Assembly: GCA_037893245.1 (NCBI GenBank) | Contig: JBAIAA010000741.1 | Span: 186,001-250,000 of the forward strand | From: Crossaster papposus | Taxonomy: Eukaryota; Echinodermata; Asteroidea; Velatida; Solasteridae | Length of the DNA: 64,000 bases | Direction: 5' to 3' | Part shown: positions 7,869 to 50,403 of the stretch, one piece after another | Layout: each line of letters opens with the position of its first letter | Numbering within the stretch: the stretch's first letter is position 1 | The notes under the pieces: generated by a model | Told to the model about the DNA's origin: nothing | Seen by the model: the letters and a program-made list of their open reading frames with translations, nothing else | Database searches by the model: none | Made by a program: the position numbers and the translations under genes

Positions 7869-9770
7869 TCTATACTATAAAAGATGTAAAATGCGCCATC
7901 TTGTCCCTGGGCGCAGCCATCTTGAAAATCTTGGAACACAGGGCCGCGCCATCTTGGCCCGTGGTTGGCGCCATGTTGGCTTTTGGTCGGGCGACGAGTC
8001 GCCGCGCGCGTGTGCGGCCGGCGTCGGTGCGGCGGGGTGCCGGACCGTTCGCGACGGGGAATCCCCCGGGGAATCCCCCGGGGAATAAGATTTTAAAAAA
8101 AATCGTATTCGTCCGTGGTGAGATTTAAAAGAAACGGACGTTACCGATAAACGCGTAATCGCTTTTCGATTGCATGTCGATGTCTGCGGGCCTTTTTGCG
8201 TGAACTATTGCGTTAATTTTGCATTGTCCTTGCCCGGAGTTCGGGCCGAAGCCTTCCCGAAATCGTACTACCGTAACTCGGTTGCCGAATTGTTGGCTGT
8301 TTGCGATTAAGCGGCGGCTGCATGCGTTACGCGAAGCCTTCGCAAATTCATTGTATCCGCCTTGCTCGCGCGGTGGCCGAGTTGGTGCCGAGTTTGTTAT
8401 TCGCCATTGGGCGGCCCCGTCACGTGTTATTTGAGCTGGTGCCCCGATTTATACTTCCTTGGTTATTGCGGAGTAAACATAGTACCAGTTGAGCGCGGGC
8501 TTCGTTTTCGGGTCAAATTCGTGCGCGTCGACCGCGTTTCAGTCACAGCTTGGGAACGTTAAAAAATGATTTATTCCTTTCGTGTTGCCTTTTGGGCAAA
8601 TTTCTTTGCTTCACATTGTCGATACTTAAATATTACAACATTATCTGTCTCAAAACACTCCGAAACATATCGCTATTGCCTCAATTTCAACTTTGATCGC
8701 GCAAAAATGTCGCGAAATTGTATGGCGATGGTGGATATGAATATGCAATTTAGAAACGTGAATGCATTACGTCTGTTGAGGGCGCACTGTCAGATGGCCG
8801 GAAATTTACCTACAGCAACTGACCAATCAGAAGGGAGGAAATGTGTGTTCACAATAGTCGATGTTAAATTGTGGTATTTAGTCCAACAATTCACTTTTTT
8901 GACCATGATATGTAATTATTCAAACGATTCCTCGATTGAATTTTGATTTTTGGGCAATAGTGAGACAAAAATCGCATTACATTTTATTCGTATTCAAATG
9001 TTGACATTATTCATAAAAATTTGCTGTGACTTTTTCGTGGACAAAAAAGCGAACTATAAAACTAACAACGGCAATAGCTAAGTTTGTAGTAAGTGTTCAG
9101 TAGGTAATATCTAATAGGAATAGGTTATTATTGTATGTATGTATGTGTAATGTGTAATTGCAATGTGTAATAAGTTAATGTGGTATTACGTAATCTGTAC
9201 ACGCAGTAAATATGTACATAATTAGAGTGTTCAACAGTAGATTTTTTTATCTTGCCAATGTGCTCTGAATGTTGTACGAATGTTATTTCACAACGTTTCT
9301 TTGTAACGTTCAAAGGACGTCAAGAGAACTCCACACATTTACGTTCCCGAAACGTTTTTTCCAAACGTTCCGGAAACATTACCGTAACGTTGTAAGAACG
9401 TTCATGGAACGTTTTTTTGGTTAGCTGGGATGGTATTCTACGGAGCCCCTAAAGGGACATATGACGAATAAAAATCACCGTTACGAAATAATTTGAGTAT
9501 TTTATTTCGTGCACTCAAAATAACTTATTTCGTGAGCTCGAAATGTTGTCGTGGCCACGAAATGACTTCGTGCGCTCCAAGAATATCTGTTCGTGAGCTC
9601 GAAATAATTTCGTGCGCTCGAAATACTTTCTAGCTGGTACTCTACTCGCTAAGTTTCGCGATTTGTTTGTCATACAATTCATTATGTTTTTAAGACGTCA
9701 ACAAGGTGTATCTATAAGTTACGATTTCACCCAGCTAGCAGGTGCCGCGCGAAGCGCGGCATCCTGCTAG
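7869..9770 (+). mobile_element. Helitron unit 1 (diverged, 1902 bp)
   Basis: The first unit has the canonical TCTATACTATAAAAGATG start and the CTAG hairpin end. The 5' 930 bp and the 3' 340 bp match the other units. Bases from about 8800 to 9425 are unlike any other unit. They include AACGTTC-rich palindromic sequence near 9290-9415 that may be part of another inserted element. It is the most diverged copy, as expected for an edge unit of an array. Confidence 0.85.
9290..9425. repeat. AACGTT-rich palindromic stretch inside Helitron unit 1
   Basis: GAAACGTTTTTT, CAAACGTTCC, GTAACGTTG, GAACGTTC and GGAACGTTTTTT occur within about 130 bp. The words are mutually complementary. The stretch is absent from every other unit, so it arrived in unit 1 alone. 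It looks like the end of a DNA transposon, but I could not define the other end. Confidence 0.5.
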
Positions 9771-11474
9771 TCTATACTATAAAAGATGTTAAATTCGCCA
9801 TCTTGTCCCTGGGCGCCGCCATCTTGGAACGCAGGGCCGCGCCATCTTGGAAACACAGGGCCGCGCCATCTTGGCGCGTGGTTGGCGCCATGTTGGCTTT
9901 TGGTCGGGCGACTTGTCGCCGCGCGCGTGTGCCGCCGGCGTCGGTGCGGCGGGGTGCCGGACCGTTCGCGACGGGGAATCCCCGGGGAATCCCCCGGGGA
10001 ATAAGATTTTAAAAAAATCGTATTCGTCCGTGGTGAGATTTAAAAGAAACGGACGTTACCGATAAACGCGTAATCGCTTTTCGATTGCCTGTCGATGTCT
10101 GCGGGCCTTTTTGCGCGAACTATTGCGTTATTTTTGCATTGTCCTTGACCGGAGTTCGGGCCGAAGCCTTCCCGAAATCGTACTGCCGTAACTCGGTTGC
10201 CGAATTGTTGGCCGTTTGCGATTAAGCGGCGGCTACATGCGTTACGCGAAGCCTTCGCAAATTAATTGTATCCGCCTTGCTTGCGCGGTGGCCGAGTTGG
10301 TGCCGAGTTTGTTGTTCGCGATTGGGCGGCCCGTCCCGTGTTATTTGACCTTTATACTCCATTGGTTATTGCGGAGTTTGAGCGCCAGCTTCGTTTTCGG
10401 CTTTGAATTTCGTGCGCGTCGACCACATTGCAGTCACAGGCTTGGAACGTTAAAAAATGATTTATTCCTTTCGTGTTGCCTTTTGGGCAAATTTCGTTGC
10501 TTCACATTGTCGATACTTAAATATTACAACATTATCTGTCTCAAAACACTCCGAAACATATCGCTATTGCCTCAATTTCAACTTTGATCGTGCAAAAATG
10601 TCGCGAAATTGTATGGCGATGGTGGATATGAATATGCAATTTAGAAACGTGACTACGTTTCGGCGTCGACCATTTTGTAGTCACAGTTTTGGAACGTAAA
10701 AACAATGATTTATTCCTTTCGTGTTGCCTTCTGGCAAAATTTCTTCCTTTCACATTGTCAATACTTAAATATTACAACATTATCTCTCTAAAAACACTCC
10801 GAAACGTATCGCTATTGCCTCAATTTTAACTTTTATCGTTGAAAAATGTCGCGAAATTGTAAGGCCTATCGTGGATATGAATATTCAATTTAGAAACGGG
10901 ACTGCCTTACGTCAGTTGAGGGCGCACTGTCAGACGGCCGGTCTGTTGGTTTTTTTCAATCGTAACGACGTAAATCAGAAACCCCGAAGTGGTTCGTATT
11001 GTTTCCCGTACGATTCATGTTAAAAAATCACGAGACGCAGGCAGCATGCAAGCAAAGATGAACTGCCTATTGAGTATTATTAGTTCGGAAGTCGGGAAGT
11101 ATTTTTACAAAGATTGTTTGTTATTCAGAGTCGATGGTATTCTACGGAGCCCCTAAAGGGACATATGACGAATACAAATCACCGTTACGAAATAATTTGA
11201 GTATTTTATTTCGTGCACTCAAAATAACTTATTTCGTGAGCTCGAAATGTTGTCGTGGCCACGAAATGACTTCGTGCGCTCCAAGAATATCTGTTCGTGA
11301 GCTCGAAATAATTTCGTGCGCTCGAAATACTTTCTAGCTGGTACTCTACTCGCTAAGTTTCGCGATTTGTTTGTCATACAATCCATTGTGTTTTTAAGAC
11401 GTCAACAAGGTGTATCTATAAGTTACGATTTCACCCAGCTAGCAGGTGCCGCGCGAAGCGCGGCATCCTGCTAG
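9771..11474 (+). mobile_element. Helitron unit 2 (long class, 1704 bp)
   Basis: A full unit with both termini. The module beginning TTTATTCCTTTCGTGTTGCC is present twice (about 10459 and 10708). The spacer between the two modules lacks the CTTCGGCTTTGCCTCCGAAT stretch found in other long units, which explains its slightly shorter length. Confidence 0.88.
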
Positions 11475-12925
11475 TCTATACTATAAAAGATGACAAATGC
11501 GCCATCTTGTCCCTGGGCGCCGCCATCTTGGAACGCAGGGCCGCGCCATCTTGGAAACACAGGGCCGCGCCATCTTGGCGCGTGGTTGGCGCCATGTTGG
11601 ATTTTGGTCGGGCGACTCGTCGCCGCGCGCGTGTGCGGCCGGCGTCGGTGCGGCGGGGTGCCGGATCGTTCGCGACGGGGAATCCCCCGGGGAATAAGAT
11701 TTGAAAGTGAGATTTAAAAGAAACGGACGTTACCGATAAACGCGTAATCGCTTTTCGATTGCCTGTCGATGTCTGCGGGCCTTTTTGCGTGAACTATTGC
11801 GTTATTTTTGCATTGTCCTTGCCCGGAGTTCGGGCCGAAGCCTTCCCGAAATCGTACTACCGTAACTCTGTTGCCGAATTGTTGGCTGTTTGCGATTAAG
11901 CGGCGGCTACATGCGTTACGCGAAGCCTTCGCAAATTGATTGTATCCGCCTTGCTTGCGCGGTGGCCGAGTTGGTGCCGAGTTTGTTTTTTCGCGATTGG
12001 GCGGCCCCGTCACGTGTTATTTGAGCTGGTGCCCCGATTTATACTTCCTTGGTTATTGCGGAGTAAACATAGTACCAGTTGAGCGCCGGCTTCGAATTCG
12101 TGCGCGTCTACCACGTTTCAGTCACAGCTTGGGAACGTTAAAAAACGATTTATTCCTTTCGTGTTGTCTTTTGGGCAAATTTCTTTACTTCACATTGTCG
12201 ATACTTAAATATTACAACATTATGTGTCTGAAAACACTCCGAAACATATCGCTATTGCCTCAATTTCAACTTTGATCGTTCAAAAATGTCGCGAAATTGT
12301 AGGGCGATGGTGGATATGAATATGCAAATTAGAAACGTGACTGCATTACGTCATTTGAGGGCGCACTGTCAGATGGCCGGCCTGTTGGGTTTTTTAATCG
12401 GGATTTTCACGATGATGTAAACTCAGAAATCCCGAAGTGGTTCGTATTGTTTCCCGTACGATTCCTGTTAAAAAGTAACGAGACGCAGGCAGCATGCAAG
12501 CGAAGATGGACTGCCTATTGAGTATTATTAGTTCGAAAGTCGGGAAGTATTTTTACAAAGATTGTTTGTTATTCAGACTCGATGGTATTCTACGGAGCCC
12601 CTAAAGGGACATATGACGAATAAAAATCACCGTTACGCAATAATTTGAGTATTTTATTTCGTGCACTCAAAATAACTTATTTCGTGAGCTCGAAATGTTG
12701 TCGTGGCCACGAAATGACTTCTTGCGCTCCAAGAATATCTGTTCGTGAGCTCGAAATAGTTTCGTGCGCTCGAAATACTTTCTAGCTGGTACTCTACTCG
12801 CTAAGTTTCGCGATTTGTTTGTCATACAATCCATTATGTTTTTAAGACGTCAACAAGGTGTATCTATATTAAGTTACGATTTCACGCAGCTAGCAGGTGC
12901 CGCGCGAAGCGCGGCATCCTGCTAG
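11475..12925 (+). mobile_element. Helitron unit 3 (short class, 1451 bp)
   Basis: A full unit with one copy of the internal module. A stretch of roughly 20 bp that is present in most other units (around the TCGTATTCGTCC motif) is missing near 11703. Confidence 0.88.
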
Positions 12926-14657
12926 TCTATACTATAAAAGATGTTAAATTCGCCATCTTGTCCCTGGGCGCCGCCATCTTGGAACGCAGGGCCGCGCCAT
13001 CTTGGAAACACAGGGCCGCGCCATCTTGGCGCGTGGTTGGCGCCATGTTGGCTTTTGGTCGGGCGACTTGTCGCCGCGCGCGTGTGCCGCCGGCGTCGGT
13101 GCGGCGGGGTGCCGGACCGTTCGCGACGGGGAATCCCCCAGGGAATCCCCCGGGGAATAAGATTTTAAAAAAATCGTATTCGTCCGTGGTGAGATTTAAA
13201 AGAAACGGACGTTACCGATAAACGCGTAATCGCTTTTCGATTGCCTGTCGATGTCTGCGGGCCTTTTTGCGCGAACTATTGCGTTATTTTTGCATTGTCC
13301 TTGACCGGAGTTCGGGCCGAAGCCTTCCCGAAATCGTACTGCCGTAACTCGGTTGCCGAATTGTTGGCCGTTTGCGATTAAGCGGCGGCTACATGCGTTA
13401 CGCGAAGCCTTCGCAAATTAATTGTATCCGCCTTGCTTGCGCGGTGGCCGAGTTGGTGCCGAGTTTGTTGTTCGCGATTGGGCGGCCCGTCCCGTGTTAT
13501 TTGACCTTTATACTCCATTGGTTATTGCGGAGTTTGAGCGCCAGCTTCGTTTTCGGCTTTGAATTTCGTGCACGTCGACCACATTGCAGTCACAGGCTTG
13601 GAACGTTAAAAAATGATTCATTCCTTTCGTGTTGCCTTTTGGGCAAATTTCGTTGCTTCACATTGTCGATACTTAAATATTACAACATTATCTGTCTCAA
13701 AACACTCCGAAACATATCGCTATTGCCTCAATTTCAACTTTGATCGTGCAAAAATGTCGCGAAATTGTATGGCGATGGTGGATATGAATATGCAATTTAG
13801 AAACGTGACTACGTTTCGGCTTCGGCTTTGCCTCCGAATTCCTGCGCGTCGACCATTTTGTAGTCACAGTTTTGGAACGTAAAAAAAATGATTTATTCCT
13901 TTCGTGTTGCCTTTTGGGCAAATTTCTTTGCTTCACATTGTCGATACTTAAATATTACAACATTATCTGTCTCAAAACACTCCGAAACATATCGCTATTG
14001 CCTCAATTTCAACTTTGATCGTGCAAAAATGTCGCGAAATTGTAAGGCCTATCGTGGATATGAATATTCAATTTAGAAACGGGACTGCCTTACGTCAGTT
14101 GAGGGCGCACTGTCAGACGGCCGGTCTGTTGGGTTTTTTCAATCGTAACGACGTAAATCAGAAACCCCGAAGTGGTTCGTATTGTTTCCCGTACGATTCA
14201 TTTTAAAAAATCACGAGACGCAGGCAGCATGCAAGCAAAGATGAACTGCCTATTGAGTATTATTAGTTCGGAAGTCGGGAAGTATTTTTACAAAGATTGT
14301 TTGTTATTCAGAGTCGATGGTATTCTACGGAGCCCCTAAAGGGACATATGACGAATACAAATCACCGTTACGAAATAATTTGAGTATTTTATTTCGTGCA
14401 CTCAAAATAACTTATTTCGTGAGCTCGAAATGTTGTCGTGGCCACGAAATGACTTCGTGCGCTCCAAGAATATCTGTTCGTGAGCTCGAAATAATTTCGT
14501 GCGCTCGAAATACTTTCTAGCTGGTACTCTACTCGAAAATTTTCGCGATTTGTTTGTCATACAATCCATTGTGTTTTTAAGACGTCAACAAGGTGTATCT
14601 ATAAGTTACGATTTCACCCAGCTAGCAGGTGCCGCGCGAAGCGCGGCATCCTGCTAG
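12926..14657 (+). mobile_element. Helitron unit 4 (long class, 1732 bp)
   Basis: A full unit with two internal modules (about 13614 and 13889). The second module keeps the TTTTGGGCAAATTTC version, where units 8-11 carry TTCTGGCAAAATTTC. This unit therefore records an earlier, less diverged state of the module duplication. Confidence 0.88.
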
Positions 14658-16134
14658 TCTATACTATAAAAGATGACAAATGCGCCATCTTGTCCCTGGG
14701 CGCCGCCATCTTGGAACGCAGGGCCGCGCCATCTTGGAACACAGGGCCGCGCCATCTTGGCGCGTGGTTGGCGCCATGTTGGCTTTTGGTCGGGCGACTC
14801 GTCGCCGCGCGTGCGTGCCGCCGGCGTGGGTGCGGCGGGGTGCCGGATCGTTCGCGACGGGGAATCCCCCGGGGAATAAGATTTAACAAAAAATCGTATT
14901 CGTCCGAAGTGAGATTTAAAAGAAACGGACGTTACCGATAAACGCGTAATCGCTTTTCGATTGCCTGTCGATGTCTGCGGGCCTTTTTGCGTGAACTATT
15001 GCGTTTTTTTTGCATTGTCCTTGCCCGGAGTTCGGGCCGAAGCCTTCCCGAAATCGTACTACCCAACTCGGTTGCCAAATTGTTGGCTGTTTGCGATTAA
15101 GCGGCGGCTACATGCGTTACACGAAGCCTTCGCAAATTAATTGTATCCGCCTTGCTCGCGCGGTGGCCGAGTTGGTGCCGAGTTTGTTATTCGCCATTGG
15201 GCGGCCCCGTCACGTGTTATTTGAGCTGGTGCCCCGATTTATACTTCCTTGGTTTACTGCGGAGTAACATAGTACCAGTTGAGCTCCGGCTTCGTTTTCG
15301 GGTTCGAATTCGTGCGCGTCTACCACGTTTCAGTCACAGGTTGGGAAGGTTAACAAATGATTTATTCCTTTCGTGTTGCTTTTTGGGCAAATGTCTTTGC
15401 TTCACATCGTCGATACTTAAATATTACAACATTATCTGTCTCAAAACACTCCGAAACATATCGCTATTGCCTCAATTTCAACTTTGATCGCGCAAAAATG
15501 TCGCGAAATTGTATGGCGATGGTGGATATGAATATGCAAATTTATAAACGTGACTGCATTACGTCAGCTGAGGGCGCACTGTCAGATGGCCGGCCTGTTG
15601 GGTTTTTTAATCACGATTTTCACGATGATGTAAATCAGAAATCCCGAAGTGGTTCGTATTGTTTCCCGTACGATTCCTGTTAAAAAATCACGAGACGCAG
15701 GCAGCATGCAAGCGAAGATGGACTGCCTATTGAGTATTATTAGTTCGGAAGTCGGGAAGTATTTTTACAAAAATTGTTTGTTATTCAGAGTCGATGGTAT
15801 TCTACGGAGCCCCTAAAGGGACATATGACGAATACAAATCACCGTTACGAAATAATTTGAGTATTTTATTTCGTGCACTCAAAATAACTTATTTCGTAAG
15901 CTCGAAATGTTGTCGTGGCCACGAAATGACTTCTTGCGCTCCAAGAATATCTGTTCGTGAGCTCGAAATAATTTCGTGCGCTCGAAATACTTTCTAGCTG
16001 GTACTCTACTCCCTAAGTTTCGCGATTTGTTTGTCATACAATCCATTATGTTTTGAAGACGTCAACAAGGTGTATCTATAAGTTACGATTTCACCCAGCT
16101 AGCAGGTGCCGCGCGAAGCGCGGCATCCTGCTAG
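14658..16134 (+). mobile_element. Helitron unit 5 (short class, 1477 bp)
   Basis: A full unit with one internal module. The 5' CCATCTTG-rich region has the four-motif form with a shortened spacer (GGAACACAGGG). Confidence 0.88.
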
Positions 16135-18050
16135 TCTATACTATAAAAGATGTTAAATGCGCCATCTTGTCCCTGGGCGCAGCCATCTTGGAAACGCAGG
16201 GCGCCGCCATCTTGGCGCGTGGTTGGCGCCATCTTGGCTTTTGGTCGGGCGACTCGTCGCCGCGCGCGTGTGCCGCCGGCGTCGGTGCGGCGGGGTGCCG
16301 GACCGTTCGCGACGGGGAATCCCCCGGGGAATCCCCCGGGGAATAAGATTTAAAAAAAAATCGTATTCGTCCCGTGGTGAGATTTAAAAGAAACGGACGT
16401 TACCGATAAACGCGTAATCGCTTTTCGATTGCCTGTCGATGTCTGTGGGCCTTTTTGCGTGAACTATTGCGTTATTTTTGCATTGTCCTTGCCCGGAGTT
16501 CGGGCCGAAGCCTTCCCGAAATCGTACTACCGTAACTCGGTTGCCGAATTGTTGGCTGTTTGCGATTAAGCGGCGGATGCATGCGTTACGCGAAGCCTTC
16601 GCAAATTGATTGTATCCGCCTTGCTTGCGCGGTGGCCGAGTTGGTGCCGAGTTTGTTTTTCGCGATTGGGCGGCCCCGTCACGTGTTATTTGAGCTGGTG
16701 CCCCGATTTATACTTCCTTGGTTCACTGCGGAGTAAACATAGTACCAGTTGAGCTCCGGCTTCGTTTTCGGGTTCGAATTCGTGCGCGTCTACCACGTTT
16801 CAGTCACAGCTTGGGAACGTTAAAAAATGATTTATTCCTTTCGTGTTGCCTTTTGTGAAAATTTCTTTACTTCACATTGTCGATACTTAAATATTACAAC
16901 ATTATGTGTCTAAAAACACTCCGAAACATATCGCTATTGCCTCAATTTCAACTTTGATCCCGCAAAAATGTCGCGAAATTGTAGGGCGATGGTGGATATG
17001 AATATGCAAATTACAAACGTGACTGCATTACGTCAGTTGAGGGCGCACTGTCAGATGGCCGGCCTGTTGGTTTTTTTAATCAGGATTTTCACGATGATGT
17101 AAACTCAGAAATCCCGAAGTGGTTCGTATTGTTTCCCGTACGATTCCTGTTAAAAAATAACGAGACGCAGGCAGCATGCAAGCGAAGATGGACTGCCTAT
17201 TGAGTATTATTAGTTCGAAAGTCGGGAAGTATTTTTACAAAGATTGTTTGTTATTCAGACTCGATGGTATTCTACGGAGCCCCTAAAGGGACATAGGCCT
17301 ATGACGAATAAAAATCACCGTTACGAAATAATTTGAGTATTTTATTTCGTGCACTCAAAATAACTTATTTCGTGAGCTCGAAATGTTGTCGTGGCCACGA
17401 AATGACTTCTTGCGCTCCAAGAATATCTGTTCGTGAGCTCGAAATAATTTCGTGCGCTCGAAATACTTTCTAGCTGGTACTCTACTCGTTAAGTTTCGCG
17501 ATTTGTTTGTCATACAATCCATTATGTTTTTAAGACGTCAACAAGGGGTGCGTTCCACTTACGCGAACTGTTTGCGCGAACGTTCGCCAACGTTTTGAGT
17601 TGGCGTTAGGGGGAGTGGAACGATATTTTAAAAACTACGTTTTCAAAATGGCGGCGCCCGGTGAAAGTGACATCGTTTGGTTCGCTGCTTTTTGTCCAAC
17701 TCATTATTTTTCTTTAAAAGATCCCTGTGACTGCTCAAAACAATCCACCGTTTATAACGAAAAGTATAAAACGTAAATAAAAACCGTGAAAAGAACCCTG
17801 CCGTCTGCTAACCGCTTCGCCATCATTAAAATACGTCACTGGCCAACAGCGAACAGCTCGGAATGTCGTTCGCCGTTTTCGCTAACGTTGGCCAACATAA
17901 TTGGCGCACATTGCGTTCCACTCACGCGAACAACGCTAACGTTGGCCAACGTTGGCAACGTTCGCTGGAGTGGAACGCACCCCAGGTGTATCTATAAGTT
18001 ACGATTTCACCCAGCTAGCAGGTGCCGCGCGAAGCGCGGCATCCTGCTAG
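16135..18050 (+). mobile_element. Helitron unit 6 (short class interrupted by a 439-bp insertion)
   Basis: Without the insertion at 17545-17983 the unit is 1477 bp, the same length as unit 5. Its CCATCTTG region is shorter than in the other units. The insertion splits the 3' part just before the conserved GTGTATCTATAAGTTACG. Confidence 0.88.
17545..17983. mobile_element. MITE-like insertion inside Helitron unit 6
   Basis: The neighbouring units read CAACAAGGTGTATC without a break. Here 439 bp begin with GGGGTGCGTTCCACT and end with AGTGGAACGCACCCC, a perfect 15-bp terminal inverted repeat. A second copy of the TGCGTTCCACTCACGCGAAC motif lies inside near 17910, and CCAACGTTGGC palindromes fill the right part. 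It has no coding capacity. The target duplication is at most 1-2 bp. It shows that the array was already in place when this element jumped. Confidence 0.85.
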
Positions 18051-19504
18051 TCTATACTATAAAAGATGACAAATGCGCCATCTTGTCCCTGGGCGCCGCC
18101 ATCTTGGAACGCAGGGCCGCGCCATCTTGGAACACAGGGCCGCGCCATCTTGGCGCGTGGTTGGCGCCATGTTGGCTTTTGGTCGGGCGACTCGTCGCCG
18201 CGCGTGTGTGCCGCCGGCGTCGGTGCGGCGGGGTGCCGGATCGTTCGCGACGGGGAATCCCCCGGGGAATAAGATTTAAAAAAAAATCGTATTCGTCCGA
18301 AGTGAGATTTAAAAGAAACGGACGTTACCGATAAACGCGTAATCGCTTTTCGATTGCCTGTCGATGTCTGTGGGCCTTTTTGCGTGAACTATTGCGTTAT
18401 TTTTGCATTGTCCTTGCCCGGAGTTCGGGCCGAAGCCTTCCCGAAATCGTACTACCGTAACTCGGTTACCGAATTGTTGGCTGTTTGCGATTAAGCGGCG
18501 GCTACATGCGTTACGCGAAGCCTTCGCAAATTGATTGTATCCGCCTTGCTCGCGCGGTGGCCGAGTTGGTGCCGAGTTTGTTATTCGCCATTGGGCGGCC
18601 CCGTCACGTGTTATTTGAGCTTTATACTCCCTTGGTTATTGCGGAGTTTGAGCGCCAGCTTCGTTTTCGGCTTCGAATTTCGTGCGCGTCGACCACATTG
18701 CAGTCACAGGCTTGGAACGTTAAAAAATGATTTATTCCTTTCGTGTTGCCTTTTGGGCAAATTTCTTTGCTTTACATTGTCGATACTTAAATATTACAAC
18801 ATTATCTGTCTCAAAACACTCCGAAACATATCGCTATTGCCTCAATTTCAACTTTGATCGTGCAAAAATGTCGCGAAATTGTATAGCGATGGTTGATATG
18901 AATATGCAATTTAGAAACGTGACTGCATTACGTCAGTTGAGGGCGCACTGTCAGATGGCCGGCCTGTTGGGTTTTTTAATCAGGATTTTCACGATGATGT
19001 AAACTCAGAAATCCCGAAGTGGTTCGTATTGTTTCCCGTACGATTCCTGTTAAAAAATCACGAGACGCAGGCAGCATGCAAGCAAAGATGAACTGCCTAT
19101 TGAGTATTATTAGTTCGGAAGTCGGGAAGTATTTTTACAAAGATTGTTTGTTTTTCAGAGTCGATGGTATTCTACGGAGCCCCTAAAGGGACATATGACG
19201 AATAAAAATCACCGTTACGAAATAATTTGAGTATTTTATTTCGTGCACTCAAAATAACTTATTTCGTGAGCTCGAAATGTTTTCGTGGCCACGAAATGAC
19301 TTCTTGCGCTCCAAGAATATCTGTTCGTGAGCTCGAAATAATTTCGTGCGCTCGAAATACTTTCTAGCTGGTACTCTACTCGCTAAGTTTCGCGATTTGT
19401 TTGTCATACAATCCATTGTGTTTTTAAGACGTCAACAAGGTGTATCTATAAGTTACGATTTCACCCAGCTAGCAGGTGCCGCGCGAAGCGCGGCATCCTG
19501 CTAG
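18051..19504 (+). mobile_element. Helitron unit 7 (short class, 1454 bp)
   Basis: A full unit with one internal module. The middle part (TATACTCCCTTGGTTATTGC, then GAGTTTGAGCGCC) is of the type otherwise seen in long units, so it is a hybrid of the two sequence classes. Confidence 0.88.
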
Positions 19505-21245
19505 TCTATACTATAAAAGATGTTAAATGCGCCATCTTGTCCCTGGGCGCCGCCATCTTGGAACGCAGGGCCGCGCCATCTTGGAAACACAGGGCCGCGC
19601 CATCTTGGCGCGTGGTTGGCGCCATGTTGGCTTTTGGTCGGGCGACTTGTCGCCGCGCGCGTGTGCCGCCGGCGTCGGTGCGGCGGGGTGCCGGACCGTT
19701 CGCGACGGGGAATCCCCCGGGGAATCCCCCGGGGAATAAGATTTTTAAAAAATCGTATTCGTCCGTGGTGAGATTTAAAAGAAACGGACGTTACCGATAA
19801 ACGCGTAATCGCTTTTCGATTGCCTGTCGATGTCTGCGGGCCTTTTTGCGCGAACTATTGCGTTATTTTTGCATTGTCCTTGACCGGAGTTCGGGCCGAA
19901 GCCTTCCCGAAATCGTACTGCCGTAACTCGGTTGCCGAATTGTTGGCCGTTTGCGATTAAGCGGCGGCTACATGCGTTACGCGAAGCCTTCGCAAATTAA
20001 TTGTATCCGCCTTGCTTGCGCGGTGGCCGAGTTGGTGCCGAGTTTGTTGTTCGCGATTGGGCGGCCCGTCCCGTGTTATTTGACCTTTATACTCCATTGG
20101 TTATTGCGGAGTTTGAGCGCCAGCTTCGTTTTCGGCTTTGAATTTCGTGCGCGTCGACCACATTGCAGTCACAGGCTTGGAACGTAAAAAAATGATTTAT
20201 TCCTTTCGTGTTGCCTTTTGGGCAAATTTCGTTGCTTCACATTGTCGATACTTAAATATTACAACATTATCTGTCTCAAAACACTCCGAAACATATCGCT
20301 ATTGCCTCAATTTCAACTTTGATCGTGCAAAAATGTCGCGAAATTGTATGGCGATGGTGGATATGAATATGCAATTTAGAAACGTGACTACGTTTCGGCT
20401 TCGGCTTTGCCTCCGAATTCTTGCGCGTCGACCATTTTGTAGTCACAGTTTTGGAACGTAAAAACAATGATTTATTCCTTTCGTGTTGCCTTCTGGCAAA
20501 ATTTCTTCCTTTCACATTGTCAATACTTAAATATTACAACATTATCTCTCTAAAAACACTCCGAAACGTATCGCTATTGCCTCAATTTTAACTTTTATCG
20601 TTGAAAAATGTCGCGAAATTGTAAGGCCTATCGTGGATATGAATATTCAATTTAGAAACGGGACTGCCTTACGTCAGTTGAGGGCGCACTGTCAGATGGC
20701 CGGTCTGTTGGTTTTTTTAATCAGGATTTTCACGATGATGTAAACTCAGAAATCCCGAAGTGGTTCGTATTGTTTCCCGTACGATTCCTGTTAAAAGATC
20801 ACGAGACGCAGGCAGCATGCAAGCGAAGATGGACTGCCTATTGAGTATTATTAGTTCGGAAGTCGGGAAGTATTTTTACAAATATTGTTTGTTATTCAGA
20901 GTCGATGGTATTCTATGGAGCCCCTAAAGGGACATATGACGAATAAAAATCACCGTTACGAAATAATTTGAGTATTTTATTTCGTGCACTCAAAATAACT
21001 TATTTCGTGAGCTCGAAATGTTGTCGTGGCCACGAAATGACTTCGTGCGCTCCAAGAATATCTGTTCGTGAGCTCGAAATAATTTCGTGCGCTCGAAATA
21101 CTTTCTAGCTGGTACTCTACTCGCTAAGTTTCGCGATTTGTTTGTCATACAATCCATTATGTTTTTAAGACGTCAACAAGGTGTATCTATAAGTTACGAT
21201 TTCACCCAGCTAGCAGGTGCCGCGCGAAGCGCGGCATCCTGCTAG
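19505..21245 (+). mobile_element. Helitron unit 8 (long class, 1741 bp)
   Basis: A full unit with two internal modules. It shares with unit 9 the total length and the rare variant ATTCTATGGAGCC (others read ATTCTACGGAGCC), so the two 3' halves are close sisters. Confidence 0.88.
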
Positions 21246-22986
21246 TCTATACTATAAAAGATGACAAATGCGCCATCTTGTCCCTGGGCGCCGCCATCTT
21301 GGAACGCAGGGCGCCGCCATCTTGGAAACACAGGGCCGCGCCATCTTGGCGCGTGGTTGGCGCCATGTTGGCTTTTGGTCGGGCTACTTGTCGCCGCGCG
21401 CGTGTGCCGCCGGCGTCGGTGCGGCGGGGTGCCGGACCGTTCGCGACGGGGAATCCCCCGGGGAATCCCCCGGGGAATAAGATTTAAAAAAAATCGTATT
21501 CGTCCGTGGTGAGATTTAAAAGAAACGGACGTTACCGATAAACGCGTAATCGCTTTTCGATTGCCTGTCGATGTCTGCGGGCCTTTTTGCGCGAACTATT
21601 GCGTTATTTTTGCATTGTCCTTGACCGGAGTTCGGGCCGAAGCCTTCCCGAAATCGTACTGCCGTAACTCGGTTGCCGAATTGTTGGCCGTTTGCGATTA
21701 AGCGGCGGCTACATGCGTTACGCGAAGCCTTCGCAAATTAATTGTATCCGCCTTGCTTGCGCGGTGGCCGAGTTGGTGCCGAGTTTGTTGTTCGCGATTG
21801 GGCGGCCCGTCCCGTGTTATTTGACCTTTATACTCCATTGGTTATTGCGGAGTTTGAGCGCCAGCTTCGTTTTCGGCTTTGAATTTCGTGCGCGTCGACC
21901 ACATTGCAGTCACAGGCTTGGAACGTTAAAAAATGATTTATTCCTTTCGTGTTGCCTTTTGGGCAAATTTCGTTGCTTCACATTGTCGATACTTAAATAT
22001 TACAACATTATCTGTCTCAAAACACTCCGAAACATATCGCTATTGCCTCAATTTCAACTTTGATCGTGCAAAAATGTCGCGAAATTGTATGGCGATGGTG
22101 GATATGAATATGCAATTTAGAAACGTGACTACGTTTCGGCTTCGGCTTTGCCTCCGAATTCTTGCGCGTCGACCATTTTGTAGTCACAGTTTTGGAACGT
22201 AAAAACAATGATTTATTCCTTTCGTGTTGCCTTCTGGCAAAATTTCTTCCTTTCACATTGTCAATACTTAAATATTACAACATTATCTCTCTAAAAACAC
22301 TCCGAAACGTATCGCTATTGCCTCAATTTTAACTTTTATCGTTGAAAAATGTCGCGAAATTGTAAGGCCTATCGTGGATATGAATATTCAATTTAGAAAC
22401 GGGACTGCCTTACGTCAGTTGAGGGCGCACTGTCAGATGGCCGGTCTGTTGGTTTTTTTAATCAGGATTTTCACGATGATGTAAACTCAGAAATCCCGAA
22501 GTGGTTCGTATTGTTTCCCGTACGATTCCTGTTAAAAAATCACGAGACGCAGGCAGCATGCAAGCGAAGATGGACTGCCTATTGAGTATTATTAGTTCGG
22601 AAGTCGGGAAGTATTTTTACAAATATTGTTTGTTATTCAGAGTCGATGGTATTCTATGGAGCCCCTAAAGGGACATATGACGAATAAAAATCACCGTTAC
22701 GAAATAATTTGAGTATTTTATTTCGTGCACTCAAAATAACTTATTTCGTGAGCTCGAAATGTTGTCGTGGCCACGAAATGACTTCGTGCGCTCCAAGAAT
22801 ATCTGTTCGTGAGCTCGAAATAATTTCGTGCGCTCGAAATACTTTCTAGCTGGTACTCTACTCGCTAAGTTTCGCGATTTGTTTGTCATACAATCCATTA
22901 TGTTTTTAAGACGTCAACAAGGTGTATCTATAAGTTACGATTTCACCCAGCTAGCAGGTGCCGCGCGAAGCGCGGCATCCTGCTAG
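21246..22986 (+). mobile_element. Helitron unit 9 (long class, 1741 bp)
   Basis: A full unit. Its 5' part shares with unit 11 the variants GCAGGGCGCCGCCATCTTGG and TCGGGCTACTTGTCGCC, which are absent from unit 10 in between. Its 3' part groups with unit 8. Confidence 0.88.
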
Positions 22987-24718
22987 TCTATACTATAAAA
23001 GATGTTAAATGCGCCATCTTGTCCCTGGGCGCCGCCATCTTGGAACGCAGGGCCGCGCCATCTTGGGAACACAGGGCCGCGCCATCTTGGCGCGTGGTTG
23101 GCGCCATGTTGGCTTTTGGTCGGGCGACTTGTCGCCGCGCACGTGTGCCGCCGGCGTCGGTGCGGCGGGGTGCCGGACCGTTCGCGACGGGGAATCCCCC
23201 GGGGAATCCCCCGGGGAATAAGATTTAAAAAAAATCGTATTCGTCCGTGGTGAGATTTAAAAGAAACGGACGTTACCGATAAACGCGTAATCGCTTTTCG
23301 ATTGCCTGTCGATGTCTGCGGGCCTTTTTGCGCGAACTATTGCGTTATTTTTGCATTGTCCTTGACCGGAGTTCGGGCCGAAGCCTTCCCGAAATCGTAC
23401 TGCCGTAACTCGGTTGCCGAATTGTTGGCCGTTTGCGATTAAGCGGCGGCTACATGCGTTACGCGAAGCCTTCGCAAATTAATTGTATCCGCCTTGCTTG
23501 CGCGGTGGCCGAGTTGGTGCCGAGTTTGTTGTTCGCGATTGGGCGGCCCGTCCCGTGTTATTTGACCTTTATACTCCATTGGTTATTGCGGAGTTTGAGC
23601 GCCAGCTTCGTTTTCGGCTTTGAATTTCGTGCGTGTCGACCACATTGCAGTCACAGGCTTGGAACGTTAAAAAATGATTTATTCCTTTCGTGTTGCCTTT
23701 TGGGCAAATTTCGTTGCTTCACATTGTCGATACTTAAATATTACAACATTATCTGTCTCAAAACACTCCGAAACATATCGCTATTGCCTCAATTTCAACT
23801 TTGATCGTGCAAAAATGTCGCGAAATTGTATGGCGATGGTGGATATGAATATGCAATTTAGAAACGTGACTACGTTTCGGCTTCGGCTTTGCCTCCGAAT
23901 TCCTGCGCGTCGACCATTTTGTAGTCACAGTTTTGGAACGTAAAAACAATGATTTATTCCTTTCGTGTTGCCTTCTGGCAAAATTTCTTCCTTTCACATT
24001 GTCAATACTTAAATATTACAACATTATCTCTCTAAAAACACTCCGAAACGTATCGCTATTGCCTCAATTTTAACTTTTATCGTTGAAAAATGTCGCGAAA
24101 TTGTAAGGCCTATCGTGGATATGAATATTCAATTTAGAAACGGGACTGCCTTACGTCAGTTGAGGGCGCACTGTCAGACGGCCGGTCTGTTGGTTTTTTT
24201 CAATCGTAACGACGTAAATCAGAAACCCCGAAGTGGTTCGTATTGTTTCCCGTACGATTCATGTTAAAAAATCACGAGACGCAGGCAGCATGCAAGCAAA
24301 GATGAACTGCCTATTGAGTATTATTAGTTCGGAAGTCGGGAAGTATTTTTACAAAGATTGTTTGTTATTCAGAGTCGATGGTATTCTACGGAGCCCCTAA
24401 AGGGACATATGACGAATACAAATCACCGTTACGAAATAATTTGAGTATTTTATTTCGTGCACTCAAAATAACTTATTTCGTGAGCTCGAAATGTTGTCGT
24501 GGCCACGAAATGACTTCGTGCGCTCCAAGAATATCTGTTCGTGAGCTCGAAATAATTTCGTGCGCTCGAAATACTTTCTAGCTGGTACTCTACTCGCTAA
24601 GTTTCGCGATTTGTTTGTCATACAATCCATTGTGTTTTTAAGACGTCAACAAGGTGTATCTATAAGTTACGATTTCACCCAGCTAGCAGGTGCCGCGCGA
24701 AGCGCGGCATCCTGCTAG
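22987..24718 (+). mobile_element. Helitron unit 10 (long class, 1732 bp)
   Basis: A full unit with two internal modules and an intact CTAG hairpin end. It is followed directly by the 63-bp mini-derivative. Confidence 0.88.
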
Positions 24719-24781
24719 TCTATATTAAGTTACGATTTCACCCAGCTAGCAGGTGCCGCGCGAAGCGCGGCATCCTGCTAG
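24719..24781 (+). mobile_element. 63-bp Helitron mini-derivative (5' TCTATA joined to the 3' end)
   Basis: The element consists of TCTATA followed directly by TTAAGTTACGATTTCACCC and the complete 36-nt terminal hairpin with CTAG. In other units (12 and 26.4 kb) TATCTATATTAAGTTACG precedes the hairpin. The derivative therefore looks like a deletion or template switch at the TCTATA word that occurs at both the 5' end and near the 3' end. Confidence 0.85.
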
Positions 24782-26516
24782 TCTATACTATAAAAGATGA
24801 CAAATGCGCCATCTTGTCCCTGGGCGCCGCCATCTTGGAACGCAGGGCGCCGCCATCTTGGAAACACAGGGCCGCGCCATCTTGGCGCGTGGTTGGCGCC
24901 ATGTTGGCTTTTGGTCGGGCTACTTGTCGCCGCGCGCGTGTGCCGCCGGCGTCGGTGCGGCGGGGTGCCGGACCGTTCGCGACGGGGAATCCCCCGGGGA
25001 ATCCCCCGGGGAATAAGATTTAAAAAAAATCGTATTCGTCCGTGGTGAGATTTAAAAGAAACGGACGTTACCGATAAACGCGTAATCGCTTTTCGATTGC
25101 CTGTCGATGTCTGCGGGCCTTTTTGCGCGAACTATTGCGTTATTTTTGCATTGTCCTTGACCGGAGTTCGGGCCGAAGCCTTCCCGAAATCGTACTGCCG
25201 TAACTCGGTTGCCGAATTGTTGGCCGTTTGCGATTAAGCGGCGGCTACATGCGTTACGCGAAGCCTTCGCAAATTAATTGTATCCGCCTTGCTTGCGCGG
25301 TGGCCGAGTTGGTGCCGAGTTTGTTGTTCGCGATTGGGCGGCCCGTCCCGTGTTATTTGACCTTTATACTCCATTGGTTATTGCGGAGTTTGAGCGCCAG
25401 CTTCGTTTTCGGCTTTGAATTTCGTGCGCGTCGACCACATTGCAGTCACAGGCTTGGAACGTTAAAAAATGATTTATTCCTTTCGTGTTGCCTTTTGGGC
25501 AAATTTCGTTGCTTCACATTGTCGATACTTAAATATTACAACATTATCTGTCTCAAAACACTCCGAAACATATCGCTATTGCCTCAATTTCAACTTTGAT
25601 CGTGCAAAAATGTCGCGAAATTGTATGGCGATGGTGGATATGAATATGCAATTTAGAAACGTGACTACGTTTCGGCTTCGGCTTTGCCTCCGAATTCCTG
25701 CGCGTCGACCATTTTGTAGTCACAGTTTTGGAACGTAAAAACAATGATTTATTCCTTTCGTGTTGCCTTCTGGCAAAATTTCTTCCTTTCACATTGTCAA
25801 TACTTAAATATTACAACATTATCTCTCTAAAAACACTCCGAAACGTATCGCTATTGCCTCAATTTCAACTTTTATCGTTGAAAAATGTCGCGAAATTGTA
25901 AGGCCTATCGTGGATATGAATATTCAATTTAGAAACGGGACTGCCTTACGTCAGTTGAGGGCGCACTGTCAGACGGCCGGTCTGTTGGTTTTTTTCAATC
26001 GTAACGACGTAAATCAGAAACCCCGAAGTGGTTCGTATTGTTTCCCGTACGATTCATGTTAAAAAATCACGAGACGCAGGCAGCATGCAAGCGAAGATGG
26101 ACTGCCTATTGAGTATTATTAGTTCGGAAGTCAAGAAGTATTTTTACAAAGATTGTTTGTTATTCAGAGTCGATGGTCTTCTACGGAGCCCCTAAAGGGA
26201 CATATGACGAATACAAATCACCGTTACGAAATAATTTGAGTATTTTATTTCGTGCACTCAAAATAACTTATTTCGTGAGCTCGAAATGTTGTCGTGGCCA
26301 CGAAATGACTTCTTGCGCTCCAAGAATATCTGTTCGTGAACTCGAAATAATTTCGTGCGCTCGAAATACTTTCTAGCTGGTACTCTACTCGCTAAGTTTC
26401 GCGATTTGTTTGTCATACAATCCATTATGTTTTTAAGACGTCAACAAGGTGTATCTATATTAAGTTACGATTTCACCCAGCTAGCAGGTGCCGCGCGAAG
26501 CGCGGCATCCTGCTAG
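24782..26516 (+). mobile_element. Helitron unit 11 (long class, 1735 bp)
   Basis: A full unit with two modules. Its 5' part is a sister of unit 9. Near its 3' end it carries TATCTATATTAAGTTACG, the sequence variant that also forms the 63-bp derivative. Confidence 0.88.
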
Positions 26517-28267
26517 TCTATTATACTATAAAAGATGACAAATGCGCCATCTTGTCCCTGGGCGCCGCCATCTTGGAACGCAGGGCCGCGCCATCTTGGA
26601 AACACAGGGCCGCGCCATCTTGGCGCGTGGTTGGCGCCATCTTGGCTTTTGGTCGGGCGACTCGTCGCCGCGCGCGTGTGCGGCCGGCGTCGGTGCGGCG
26701 GGGTGCCGGACCGTTCGCGACGGGGAATCCCCCGGGGAATCCCCCGGGGAATAAGATTTAAAAAAAATCGTATTCGTCCGTGGTGAGATTTAAAAGAAAC
26801 GGACGTTACCGATAAACGCGTAATCGCTTTTCGATTGCCTGTCGATGTCTGCGGGCCTTTTTGCGCGAACTATTGCGTTATTTTTGCATTGTCCTTGACC
26901 GGAGTTCGGGCCGAAGCCTTCCCGAAATCGTACTGCCGTAACTCGGTTGCCGAATTGTTGGCCGTTTGCGATTAAGCGGCGGCTACATGCGTTACGCGAA
27001 GCCTTCGCAAATTAATTGTATCCGCCTTGCTTGCGCGGTGGCCGAGTTGGTGCCGAGTTTGTTGTTCGCGATTGGGCGGCCCGTCCCGTGTTATTTGACC
27101 TTTATACTCCATTGGTTATTGCGGAGTTTGAGCGCCAGCTTCGTTTTCGGCTTTGAATTTCGTGCGCGTCGACCACATTGCAGTCACAGGCTTGGAACGT
27201 TAAAAAATGATTTATTCCTTTCGTGTTGCCTTTTGGGCAAATTTCGTTGCTTCACATTGTCGATACTTAAATATTACAACATTATCTGTCTCAAAACACT
27301 CCGAAACATATCGCTATTGCCTCAATTTCAACTTTGATCGTGCAAAAATGTCGCGAAATTATATGGCGATGGTGGATATGAATATGCAATTTAGAAACGT
27401 GACTACGTTTCGGCTTCGGCTTTGCCTCCGAATTCCTGCGCGTCGACCATTTTGTAGTCACAGTTTTGGAACGTAAAAACAATGATTTATTCCTTTCGTG
27501 TTGCCTTCTGGCAAAATTTCTTCCTTTCACATTGTCAATACTTAAATATTACAACATTATCTCTCTAAAAACACTCCGAAACGTATCGCTATTGCCTCAA
27601 TTTCAACTTTGATCCCGCAAAAATGTCGCGAAATTGTATGGCGATGGTGGATATGAATATGCAAATTACAAACGTGACTGCATTACGTCAGTTGAGGGCG
27701 TACTGTCAGACGGCCGGTCTGTTGGGTTTTTTAATCATGATTTTCACGATGATGTAAAACAGAAATCCCGAAGTGGTTCGTTCGTATTGTTTCCCGTACG
27801 ATTCCTGTTAAAAATCACGAGACGCAGGCAGCATGCAAGCGAAGATGGACTGCCTATTGAGTATTATTAGTTCGGAAGTCGGGAAGTATTTTTACAAAGA
27901 TTGTGTTTGTTATTAATTCAGAGTCGATGGTATTCTACGGAACCCCTAAAGGGACATATGACGAATAAAAATCACCGTTACGAAATCATTTGAGGATTTT
28001 ATTTCGTGCACTCAAAATAACTTATTTCGTGAGCTCGAAATGTTGTCGTCGCCACGAAATGACTTCGTGCGCTCCAAGAATATCTGTTCGTGAGCTCGAA
28101 ATAATTTCGTGCGCTCGAAATACTTTCTAGCTGGTACTCTACTCGCTAAGTTTCGCGATTTGTTTGTCATACAATCCATTATGTTTTTAAGACGTCAACA
28201 AGGTGTATCTATAAGTTACGATTTCACCCAGCTAGCAGGTGCCGCGCGAAGCGCGGCATCCTGCTAG
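26517..28267 (+). mobile_element. Helitron unit 12 (long class, mosaic, 1751 bp)
   Basis: The unit starts TCTATTATACTATAAAAG, with three extra bases in the 5' terminus. Its second internal module switches midway to short-class sequence (GATCCCGCAAAAATG and GCAAATTACAAACGTG, as in unit 6), which indicates recombination or conversion between classes. Confidence 0.87.
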
Positions 28268-30000
28268 TCTATACTATAAAAGATGTTAAATTCGCCATCT
28301 TGTCCCTGGGCGCCGCCATCTTGGAACGCAGGGCCGCGCCATCTTGGAAACACAGGGCCGCGCCATCTTGGCGCGTGGTTGGCGCCATGTTGGCTTTTGG
28401 TCGGGCGACTTGTCGCCGCGCGCGTGTGCCGCCGGCGTCGGTGCGGCGGGGTGCCGGACCGTTCGCGACGGGGAATCCCCCGGGGAATCCCCCGGGGAAT
28501 AAGATTTTAAAAAAATCGTATTCGTCCGTGGTGAGATTTAAAAGAAACGGACGTTACCGATAAACGCGTAATCGCTTTTCGATTGCCTGTCGATGTCTGC
28601 GGGCCTTTTTGCGCGAACTATTGCGTTATTTTTGCATTGTCCTTGACCGGAGTTCGGGCCGAAGCCTTCCCGAAATCGTACTGCCGTAACTCGGTTGCCG
28701 AATTGTTGGCCGTTTGCGATTAAGCGGCGGCTACATGCGTTACGCGAAGCCTTCGCAAATTAATTGTATCCGCCTTGCTTGCGCGGTGGCCGAGTTGGTG
28801 CCGAGTTTGTTATTCGCCATTGGGCGGCCCCGTCACGTGTTATTTGAGCTTTATACTCCCTTGGTTATTGCAGAGTTTGAGCGCCAGCTTCGTTTTCGGC
28901 TGCGAATTTCGTGCGCGTCGACCACATTGCAGTCACAGGCTTGGAACGTTAAAAAATGATTTATTCCTTTCGTGTTGCCTTTTGGGCAAATTTCTTTGCT
29001 TCACATTGTCGATACTTAAATATTACAACATTATCTGTCTCAAAACACTCCGAAACATATCGCTATTGCCTCAATTTCAACTTTGATCGGGCAAAAATGT
29101 CGCGAAATTGTATGGCGATGGTGGATATGAATATGCAATTTAGAAACGTGACTACGTTTCGGCTTCGGCTTTGCCTCCGAATTCCTGCGCGTCGACCATT
29201 TTGTAGTCACAGTTTTGGAACGTAAAAACAATGATTTATTCCTTTCGTGTTGCCTTCTGGCAAAATTTCTTCCTTTCACATTGTCAATACTTAAATATTA
29301 CAACATTATCTCTCTAAAAACACTCCGAAACGTATCGCTATTGCCTCAATTTTAACTTTTATCGTTGAAAAATGTCGCGAAATTGTAAGGCCTATCGTGG
29401 ATATGAATATTCAATTTAGAAACGGGACTGCCTTACGTCAGTTGAGGGCGCACTGTCAGACGGCCGGTCTGTTGGTTTTTTTCAATCGTAACGACGTAAA
29501 TCAGAAACCCCGAAGTGGTTCGTATTGTTTCCCGTACGATTCATGTTAAAAAATCACGAGACGCAGGCAGCATGCAAGCAAAGATGAACTGCCTATTGAG
29601 TATTATTAGTTCGGAAGTCGGGAAGTATTTTTACAAAGATTGTTTGTTATTCAGAGTCGATGGTATTCTACGGAGCCCCTAAAGGGACATATGACGAATA
29701 CAAATCACCGTTACGAAATAATTTGAGTATTTTATTTCGTGCACTCAAAATAACTTATTTCGTGAGCTCGAAATGTTGTCGTGGCCACGAAATGACTTCG
29801 TGCGCTCCAAGAATATCTGTTCGTGAGCTCGAAATAATTTCGTGCGCTCGAAATACTTTCTAGCTGGTACTCTACTCGCTAAGTTTCGCGATTTGTTTGT
29901 CATACAATCCATTGTGTTTTTAAGACGTCAACAAGGTGTATCTATAAGTTACGATTTCACCCAGCTAGCAGGTGCCGCGCGAAGCGCGGCATCCTGCTAG
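28268..30000 (+). mobile_element. Helitron unit 13 (long class, 1733 bp, array end)
   Basis: The last unit. Its CTAG end is followed by host T at 30001. The middle part (TATTCGCCATTGGGCGG, CCGTCACGTG) resembles unit 7, while its two-module 3' part matches units 10 and 11. Confidence 0.88.
29965..30000 (+). other. Helitron 3' terminal hairpin (representative of 14 copies)
   Basis: The terminus folds as CTAGCAGGTGCCGCGC, loop GAA, GCGCGGCATCCTGCTAG: a 16-bp stem with one bulged T. The terminal CTAG is itself the base of the stem. The same 36 nt end every unit (9770, 11474, 12925, 14657, 16134, 18050, 19504, 21245, 22986, 24718, 24781, 26516, 28267). In known Helitrons such a hairpin marks the end of transposition. 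Confidence 0.9.
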
Positions 30001-48625: not shown

Positions 48626-48793
48626 CCCCCTGACCGACTCGCCCCTTACCTACTCGCCCCTTTCCAACTCGCCCCCTGACCGACTCGCCCCCTGACCGAC
48701 TCGCCCCTTACTAACTCGCCCCCTGACCGACTCGCCCCCTGGCCGACTCGCCTCCTGACCGACTCGCCCCCTGACCGACTCGCCCCCTGGTTT
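48626..48793. repeat. Left-arm 15-16 bp minisatellite of foldback element 1
   Basis: About ten to eleven copies of CTGACCGACTCGCCCC, with 15-bp variants of TTACCAACTCGCCCC type. Confidence 0.88.
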
Positions 48794-50116: not shown

Positions 50117-50403
50117 TGACCTACAATCACTCCTAGTAAGAATAGGTTTTTGCGTGATTATTTTTACAGAAAATGTGCTGTAAATTTAAGGTCGGGTAAA
50201 CTTGTTTGGATAAGGCACTGTGCATTTCTGACAAATTCATCTTTTCTGGAAACTGCATCTCGCGCACTTTCAACTTAAGCGATAAAATCCATTCAATTTG
50301 CTAATTCTGTTTTCAATATGCACAAATTACACCACTTGTACATATCAACCAGACTTGTAAGATTCCAAGTATCGTCTACATTTCAATAATGACATGTCAA
50401 TGA

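Follow-up and report, generated by a model that had tools for sequence, protein, structure and literature searches.

The 64,000-nucleotide stretch of the Crossaster papposus genome analysed here (positions 186001-250000 of contig C741 in assembly G000, which comprises 1.02 Gb in 1841 contigs; hereafter, the window) contains, at 7869-30000, an array of 13 full Helitron-like units (U1-U10 and U12-U14) and one 63-bp unit (U11), all on the + strand. The array was probably built in the main by many separate transpositions of short non-autonomous Helitrons at the 5' ends of resident elements. Separate end-to-end insertions at 5' ends have occurred, at outer and inner junctions alike, and exchange between units has occurred as well; the units come from mixed sources, their 3' ends also adjoin the 5' ends of a second element type, nested insertions have left scars, and two copies of the locus differ by the presence or absence of exact units. 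The window alone cannot decide between readings of the array, while the genome-wide evidence can.

The full units are 1451-1916 bp long, with boundaries set by fourteen 3' ends (GCATCCTGCTAG) at 9770-30000, and zero bases separate adjoining units throughout the array. Eleven of the 13 inner junctions read CTAG/TCTATACTATAAAAG (the slash marks the join); one leads into the mini unit (CTAG/TCTATATTAAG), and one, at 26517, carries a 3-bp insertion (CTAG/TCTATTATACT). Accordingly, TCTATACTATAAAAG starts 12 of the 13 full units, the exception being U13 with its 3 extra bases. At the outer edges, the sequence reads GCATCTATCTATCTA/TCTATA on the left and CTAG/TTATTATG on the right, so that A/T is found outside only. 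These ends and junctions bear out two statements of an earlier, sequence-only reading of the window, namely that tandem units and a mini-derivative follow one another on the same strand with no DNA between them, and that only the outermost ends show A/T. Its assignment of the units to non-autonomous Helitron-like elements is likewise supported by the TC...CTAG termini, the A/T site, and a strong 3' hairpin with the terminal CTAG inside it (-20.1 kcal/mol, z -5.9). The units are not uniform: pairwise identity among the 13 full ones is 89.4-99.7% (gaps ignored), and shuffling the unit order does not make neighbours significantly less alike (p 0.106). Their 5' ends alternate between two types, TTAA and GACA, a pattern consistent with young units entering before older ones. 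The mini unit U11 consists of TCTATA followed by the final 57 nt of a unit, and its start resembles the internal TCTATATTAAG of U3 and U12; it could have arisen by an aberrant 5' cut or by a short-homology deletion.

The sequence-only reading had called for a search of the source genome, and had described a 13-unit array next to a gene as unusual. When the whole assembly was searched with exact patterns, 1119 3' ends (GCGCGGCATCCTGCTAG), 1066 5' ends (TCTATACTATAAAAGATG) and 612 tandem junctions (GCATCCTGCTAG/TCTATACTATAAAAG) were found, so such tandem arrangements are not confined to this locus. Each of the three patterns read backwards, as a control, gave 0 matches, and chance is therefore excluded for the array patterns. 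The patterns for 3' end, junction, and 5' end differ slightly, so ratios between these counts are approximate, and diverged copies are missed by exact patterns; the family loci studied individually are a sample rather than the whole family. A manual count of the first 100 listed 5' ends found the canonical junction at 57. Allowing 0-30 free bases between units raised the number of junctions to 715, and of 100 listed, 87 were canonical and 13 had a gap, a truncation, or an extra piece. A newcomer stands at the first base of about 57% of the family's own exact 5' ends, and of 21% of those of the second element type.

This second type (Y; window-type units are termed X) shares TCTATACTAT with X units at its 5' end; when the first 1.5 kb of four Y copies was compared with the window by blastn, nothing matched at E 1e-5. 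The Y copies agree with each other over at least the first 0.3 kb, and differ between the four loci examined. An X 3' end lies exactly on the first T of Y at 24 of 114 exact Y 5' ends; at seven further X/Y junctions, it is displaced by a few bases or lies in an altered Y end. Under random insertion at A/T (window A/T frequency, 1119 insertions), 0.0008 exact X/Y junctions would be expected. At the four loci examined, the X units preceding Y are of different types. Entry at position 4 rather than 0 was seen at 0 versus 24 ends of Y and at 25 versus 612 ends of X, with no difference between the two (Fisher p 1.0). Two further arrangements of ends were noted. Doubled 5' ends (TCTATACTATAA/TCTATACTATAAAAG) occur at L009, L015, L021, C21:1395139 and C97:324766, and recall the multiple 5' termini of Fusarium Helitrons. 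At L046 (C17:677950), the sequence after an X 3' end is TCTATACTATCATCATC, which may belong to a third Helitron type that served as a target.

Nested insertions leave scars in which TCTA and TACT are separated (CTAG/TACTATAAAAGATG); 25 such scars are present genome-wide, eight of them on C549. Both edges of a nested insertion were read in three places, C68, C275 and C7. On C68, a stretch of 1458 bp, the length of one unit, lies between TCTA and TACTATAAAAG; its edges were read and its middle was not. On C7, two scars predicted two leftover TCTA at the left edge, and the sequence, read afterwards, shows two. On C275, a Y-type element lies between TCTA and the TATTATAAAAG that begins a U1-type unit, with both edges seen; judging from these edges, it would be 3460 bp long with a hairpin 3' end. 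A piece near its position 293 matches the compared Y copies over 25-35 bp, while two pieces further inside gave no match to Y (first 1.5 kb) or to the window. The 3' end adjoining the U1-type unit keeps its stem through a paired A-T to G-C change. On C311, the stretch before the scar is X-like only in the last 87-90 bp. The eight TACT scars of C549 (106209-131886), five of them in one row, are spaced by seven steps, four of which measure exactly 3202 bp; the scar-bearing block was therefore amplified in place afterwards. As a strict tally of nested insertions, leftover TCTA was rejected: it fits C7, C68 and C275, and fails in the window and on C17.

The second copy of the locus was found with a query made of the joined flanks of the array and aimed at an empty site. 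No empty site was found, both locus copies being filled; the query matched both flanks on contig C275 (99% and 100%), between which lies an array of 24,504 bp. C275 is probably the other allele, the alternative being a recent segmental copy. Because it has the same flanks and an array with several units of identical length, an assembly artefact is an unlikely source of the array in the window. From left to right, the C275 array consists of a private 3103-bp stretch, U3, a unit running from U5 to U6, TCTA, the Y-type element, the U1-type unit that starts with TATTATAAAAG, U9, U12, U13, three further units, and a U14-like unit. Of the private stretch (C275:387215-390317), a 65-bp piece (L108) matches neither the window nor the compared Y sequence.

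Four units have identical lengths in both copies: U3 (1451 bp; 11475-12925 in the window, 390318-391768 on C275), U9 (1741 bp; 21246-22986 and 399052-400792), U12 (1735 bp; 24782-26516 and 400793-402527) and U13 (1751 bp; 26517-28267 and 402528-404278). U3 shows 0 differences in the terminal pieces compared (5', 203 bp; 3', 106 bp), and U13, which keeps its odd 5' end on C275, shows 0 over 213 bp. The 5' pieces of U9 (0/214) and U12 (0/208) each fit both units, which were told apart by length; the 3' piece of U9 (0/76) fits U8 too, and about 0.3 kb of the 3' part of U9 was not read except for the last 28 nt. Between these shared units, single units are missing from C275. U4 (1732 bp, 12926-14657) is absent between U3 and U5: the 3' end of U3 on C275 is that of U3 itself (no differences, versus five and a 3-bp gap when compared with U4), the unit that follows begins as U5 (0/212), and since the intact U3 end and the U5 start adjoin, U4 is missing there. 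U10 (1732 bp, 22987-24718) and the hairpin-bearing mini unit U11 (63 bp, 24719-24781) are missing end to end between U9 and U12. We infer that U4 and U10 plus U11 were gained in the window copy rather than lost on C275.

Among the remaining units, U1 (1902 bp, 7869-9770) is not at this position on C275, where a U1-type unit stands elsewhere in the array, and U2 (1704 bp, TTAA-type, 9771-11474), U7 (1454 bp, 18051-19504) and U8 (1741 bp, 19505-21245) were not seen in the pieces of C275 that were read. The 5' part of U5 (1477 bp, 14658-16134) and the 3' part of U6 (1916 bp, 16135-18050) correspond to the two parts of the fusion unit on C275. U14 (1733 bp, 28268-30000), whose 3' terminal hairpin with its CTAG terminus was located by folding at 29965-30000, has a U14-like counterpart of 1722 bp, with the three further units between it and U13. 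The left host flank of the window (7831-7868, + strand), which ends in GCATCTATCTATCTA, reads GCATCTA at the same place on C275. The alternating 5' types had suggested a local dimer periodicity, but this gained no support: the shared U3, U5, U9, U12 and U13 are mostly of one type, and the window-only U2, U4, U8 and U10 are of the other, with U7 as a GACA-type exception among window-only units.

The window-only units include U1, U2 and U10, all of which have near-identical copies elsewhere. U1 is 89.4-91.0% identical to its array mates, whereas a unit on contig C55 matches it at 100% over 1500 bp. For U10, the scoring of 15 of 1578 candidates gave at least 17 full-length matches, spread over 14 other contigs, with identity printed as 100%. 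The best matches of U7 (98%) are on other contigs, versus at most 97.4% within its own array, and U2, which has a 28-bp deletion, shows no substitution relative to a C7 unit over the 3' 1.5 kb when gaps are ignored. For the U10 type, 43 sequences were compared (eight window units, 30 loci with an identical 97-bp 3' end, and five further loci), and the 32 copies with at least 97.5% identity to U10 over at least 1450 bp were retained. Their mean difference was 0.89% for pairs on the same contig (48 pairs) and 0.77% for other pairs (448); by array, it was 0.90% within (41 pairs) and 0.77% between (455). The nearest copy was in the same array for 7 of the 32. Members of a classical satellite would be more alike within than between arrays, a pattern that is absent here with the window included and present without it (figures below); the array in the window is a mixture drawn from a genome-wide pool. 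The closest U10-type pairs are L029/L030 and L026/L027. In the former (C31:908484-915677), the 3' parts of the two units lie 4.1 kb apart, show no difference and are followed by the same flank on the right, so that the duplication took in flanking DNA.

In the mechanism proposed here, a newcomer would land exactly at the 5' end of a resident element (TCTATACTAT...). The left neighbour at the target would be either the host A, at the outer edge, or the G that closes the CTAG of another element, at an inner junction; the newcomer's 5' TC would join this left neighbour, while its 3' CTAG would join the first T of the resident. Joining at the resident's first T leaves CTAG/TC inside and A/T only at the outer edges. 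The inner G/T had been taken in the sequence-only reading as an argument against independent insertions, and this argument fails, because entry at the resident's first T gives exactly CTAG/TC. The transposase must nick its own 5' terminus to start, and would also accept that terminus as a target, the ends of the newcomer presumably being joined to the nicked strand. An analogy is provided by certain bacterial elements, which insert at copies of the site that they themselves cleave. In the Helraiser model, cleavage takes place at the joined right and left terminal sequences (RTS-LTS junction) of circles (PMC5876387), which makes cutting at G/T plausible. Unequal homologous exchange, a second process that is seen at some loci, then reshuffles and amplifies the units. 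On balance we favour, with somewhat less assurance than the account of the array itself, a reading in which this family homes to the 5' ends of Helitrons, the terminus nicked at the start being the favourite landing site, with a host A or an element G before it.

Several observations weigh against array growth by insertion at 5' ends, or narrow its share. The C275 array was read in pieces, with parts of each unit not covered, and its fusion unit, with a U5-like start and a U6-like end, shows unequal exchange at work as a second, lesser process. Precise excision could have removed U4, U7, U8 and U10 from C275; a maize Hel1158 construct is reported to undergo clean somatic excision, so precise loss is possible (PMC10095026). 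Some X/Y junctions may be copies of one event, two of those on C877 being alike. Leftover TCTA and scars do not always agree: the left flank of the window (7857-7868) has three TCTA, versus one in that of C275 (387211-387214), and TACT scars are absent from the window array; on C17 (L054), a single TCTA is accompanied by no scar; C83 has two TCTA and one scar in the part read. The 99.5% identity of U8 and U9 points to amplification in place, and local amplification elsewhere is real (the C549 scars; C31, C55). When the window is left out, the mean U10-type difference is 0.42% within arrays (20 pairs) versus 0.61% (280 pairs), a value reached in only 0.8% of shuffles; the other arrays therefore show some local copying. 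Units further to the right in the array are not more diverged from their nearest foreign copy (Spearman 0.14, p 0.65), so growth at the left A/T edge only is unsupported, and entry at inner G/T sites must be assumed. Lastly, none of the 30 loci examined that match the Rep domain PF14214 has the termini of this family within about 1.5 kb; no transposase was tied to the family, and no autonomous Helitron with the same 3' end, which the sequence-only reading had suggested looking for, was found among them. Strict growth at the left edge, with each newcomer entering at the host A, was rejected, there being no age gradient and U4 and U10 plus U11 standing at inner junctions.

Three other origins of the array were weighed against serial insertion. 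The sequence-only reading had favoured rolling-circle read-through, in which the 3' terminator is skipped and a head-to-tail concatemer is made and inserted once, as put forward for bats by Pritham and Feschotte (cited in PMC2267711). This would yield perfect CTAG/TC junctions and one outer A/T, head-to-tail circles are intermediates of Helraiser (PMC5876387), and there are runs of like units on C103, C109 and C373, with same-array copies somewhat more alike outside the window. However, the units of such an array should be alike at birth, whereas U1 is at most 91% identical to its mates and matches a foreign unit perfectly over 1500 bp, and U10 has foreign relatives that are as close as or closer than its mates. 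Read-through makes neither X/Y junctions nor TCTA/TACT scars, and would not account for two locus copies that differ unit by unit, with single units missing from C275; we regard it as improbable. Unequal crossing-over, which that reading had added as a further step, fared better, since the U5/U6 fusion gives it some part. As the source of most units, with a founding pair multiplied by such crossing-over or by gene conversion, it is also favoured by the exact 3202-bp steps between the C549 scars, by near-identical neighbours (U8/U9, L026/L027, L029/L030), and by the likeness within arrays outside the window. But such exchange needs homology and copies local DNA only; it cannot import U1 or Y, and makes no Y junctions. 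A chimera would be expected where U3 meets U5 on C275, but both ends are intact in the pieces read, and two candidates for unit-exact indels without chimeras were seen. Neighbours in the window, as noted, are not significantly more alike than shuffled ones. It is thus unlikely, though less so than read-through, to have been the main builder.

Least probable of the three is homologous recombination of Helitron circles, with CTAG and TC joined, into resident copies. Circles are known as intermediates (PMC5876387; wheat extrachromosomal circular DNA in PMC13286980), and their recombination would give clean tandem junctions and import foreign units. Yet X ends abut the very first base of Y, even though Y lacks a blastn match to the window in the sequence compared; recombination at random positions should produce chimeras on both sides, in contrast to the intact ends of U3 and U5; and the TCTA/TACT scars are left unexplained. 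Insertion at resident 5' ends, followed at some loci by exchange, therefore remains the preferred account.

With respect to element type, the termini are those of Helitron1 (5' TC, 3' CTRR), with TC...CTAG in 13 of 13 full units, one of them with the 3-bp 5' insertion. Insertion is between A and T without target duplication: right flanks not recognised as Helitron ends begin with T (19 of 19), and A is the last base of the left-hand neighbour in 9 of 9 cases, two of which (L009 and L054) do not involve host DNA. The tally covers distinct flanks in L001-L060 and the window, after dropping a CTAG match without a hairpin at L050 and the mini-unit junction; on C83, a T precedes the leftover TCTA. 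The Helitron1 hairpin lies 10-15 nt before the 3' end, while the strong hairpin here takes in the terminal CTAG. Helentron/Helitron2 elements insert at T/T, a site not seen in the left-neighbour tally; no search was made for the asymmetric terminal inverted repeats that also characterise these elements (PMC5148889). The element type is thus known, and it is the self-targeting that is unusual. Genome-wide, PF14214 gave at least 150 scored matches among 273 candidates. The best Rep-domain match of the genome, L061 (C17:878247-878786, - strand), has a Y 5' end 5.1 kb upstream of it, in the same orientation, and is a possible autonomous partner.

Adjacent Helitrons have been described in other organisms. 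At maize r1, two lie head-to-tail with a CTAG/TC arrangement and a G/T junction (Du et al. 2008, PMC2267711); these authors favour consecutive insertions and name both orders, including insertion at a host A plus the 5' T of the resident, a possibility that they set against the reading given for bats. The r1 pair resembles our array in orientation, junction, and its differing units, but it is one pair with the order of insertion open, whereas here there are hundreds of junctions, another element type, nested cases, and a second locus copy. The tandem Helitrons of Myotis (Pritham and Feschotte 2007, as cited in PMC2267711 and PMC5876387) also have perfect head-to-tail junctions, and were interpreted as tandem repeats on the expectation that units would be separated by an A; this reasoning fails at the present locus. 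Maize Helitrons prefer to insert near other Helitrons (Yang and Bennetzen 2009, as cited in PMC12477314), while here the preference is exact to the base at the 5' terminus. A maize Hel1158 construct, with A/TCTATACTAT at the 5' end and CTAG/T at the 3' end, has the same ten 5' bases (PMC10095026, Table 3; the comparison covered the termini).

The CentHel arrays of plant centromeres are tandem Helitrons, too, with truncated units repeated from several to several hundred times, and often with only one 3' end to many 5' ends (Xiong et al. 2016, via PMC12628747). A concatemer of this kind was rejected for the window, where each of the 13 full units has both ends. For Helitrons of Fusarium and Metarhizium, self-insertion near or in 5' ends has been proposed, in one case 2 bp upstream, and Metarhizium acridum has three copies in tandem (PMC5148889); these elements have asymmetric terminal inverted repeats, and they are single cases in which no decision was reached between self-insertion and rolling-circle replication. 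Dimers of transposable elements in Drosophila were attributed to insertion-site preference and later expanded to many copies (McGurk and Barbash, via PMC12628747), which recalls the present case, except that the example of expansion is hobo, a DNA transposon that is not rolling-circle. In the available parts of the open PMC literature, we found no genome-scale account of Helitron self-targeting at 5' ends.

Outside the array, the window offers no support for the gene that the sequence-only reading had placed beside it, either in open reading frames (ORFs) of at least 120 aa or in the six ORFs tested against Pfam; spliced genes were not sought. The only Pfam match among the six is a reverse transcriptase (PF00078, 33011-34198, - strand, E 1.1e-21), perhaps the remnant of a retrotransposon without long terminal repeats (non-LTR). 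Two minisatellites (48619-48789 and 49949-50118), separated by about 1.2 kb, share a 16/47-bp unit but run in opposite directions, an arrangement like that of a fold-back type element, and others lie at 60948-61127 (16 bp x 11.2 at 98%) and 62659-62966 (23 bp x 13.7).

For this genome, the results bear on the origin of head-to-tail Helitrons, which has been disputed in the cited papers since 2007-2008. Head-to-tail junctions have been cited in support of rolling-circle transposition (PMC5876387); since insertion at the 5' end of a resident element can produce an identical junction, such use of them needs care. The family also offers hundreds of junctions for the study of target choice by HUH transposases, and a route from a dispersed transposon to a tandem array whose make-up is not the same in two copies of a locus. 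If the proposed homing is correct, insertion at 5' ends would build arrays that seed themselves and come to differ between homologous copies of the same locus.

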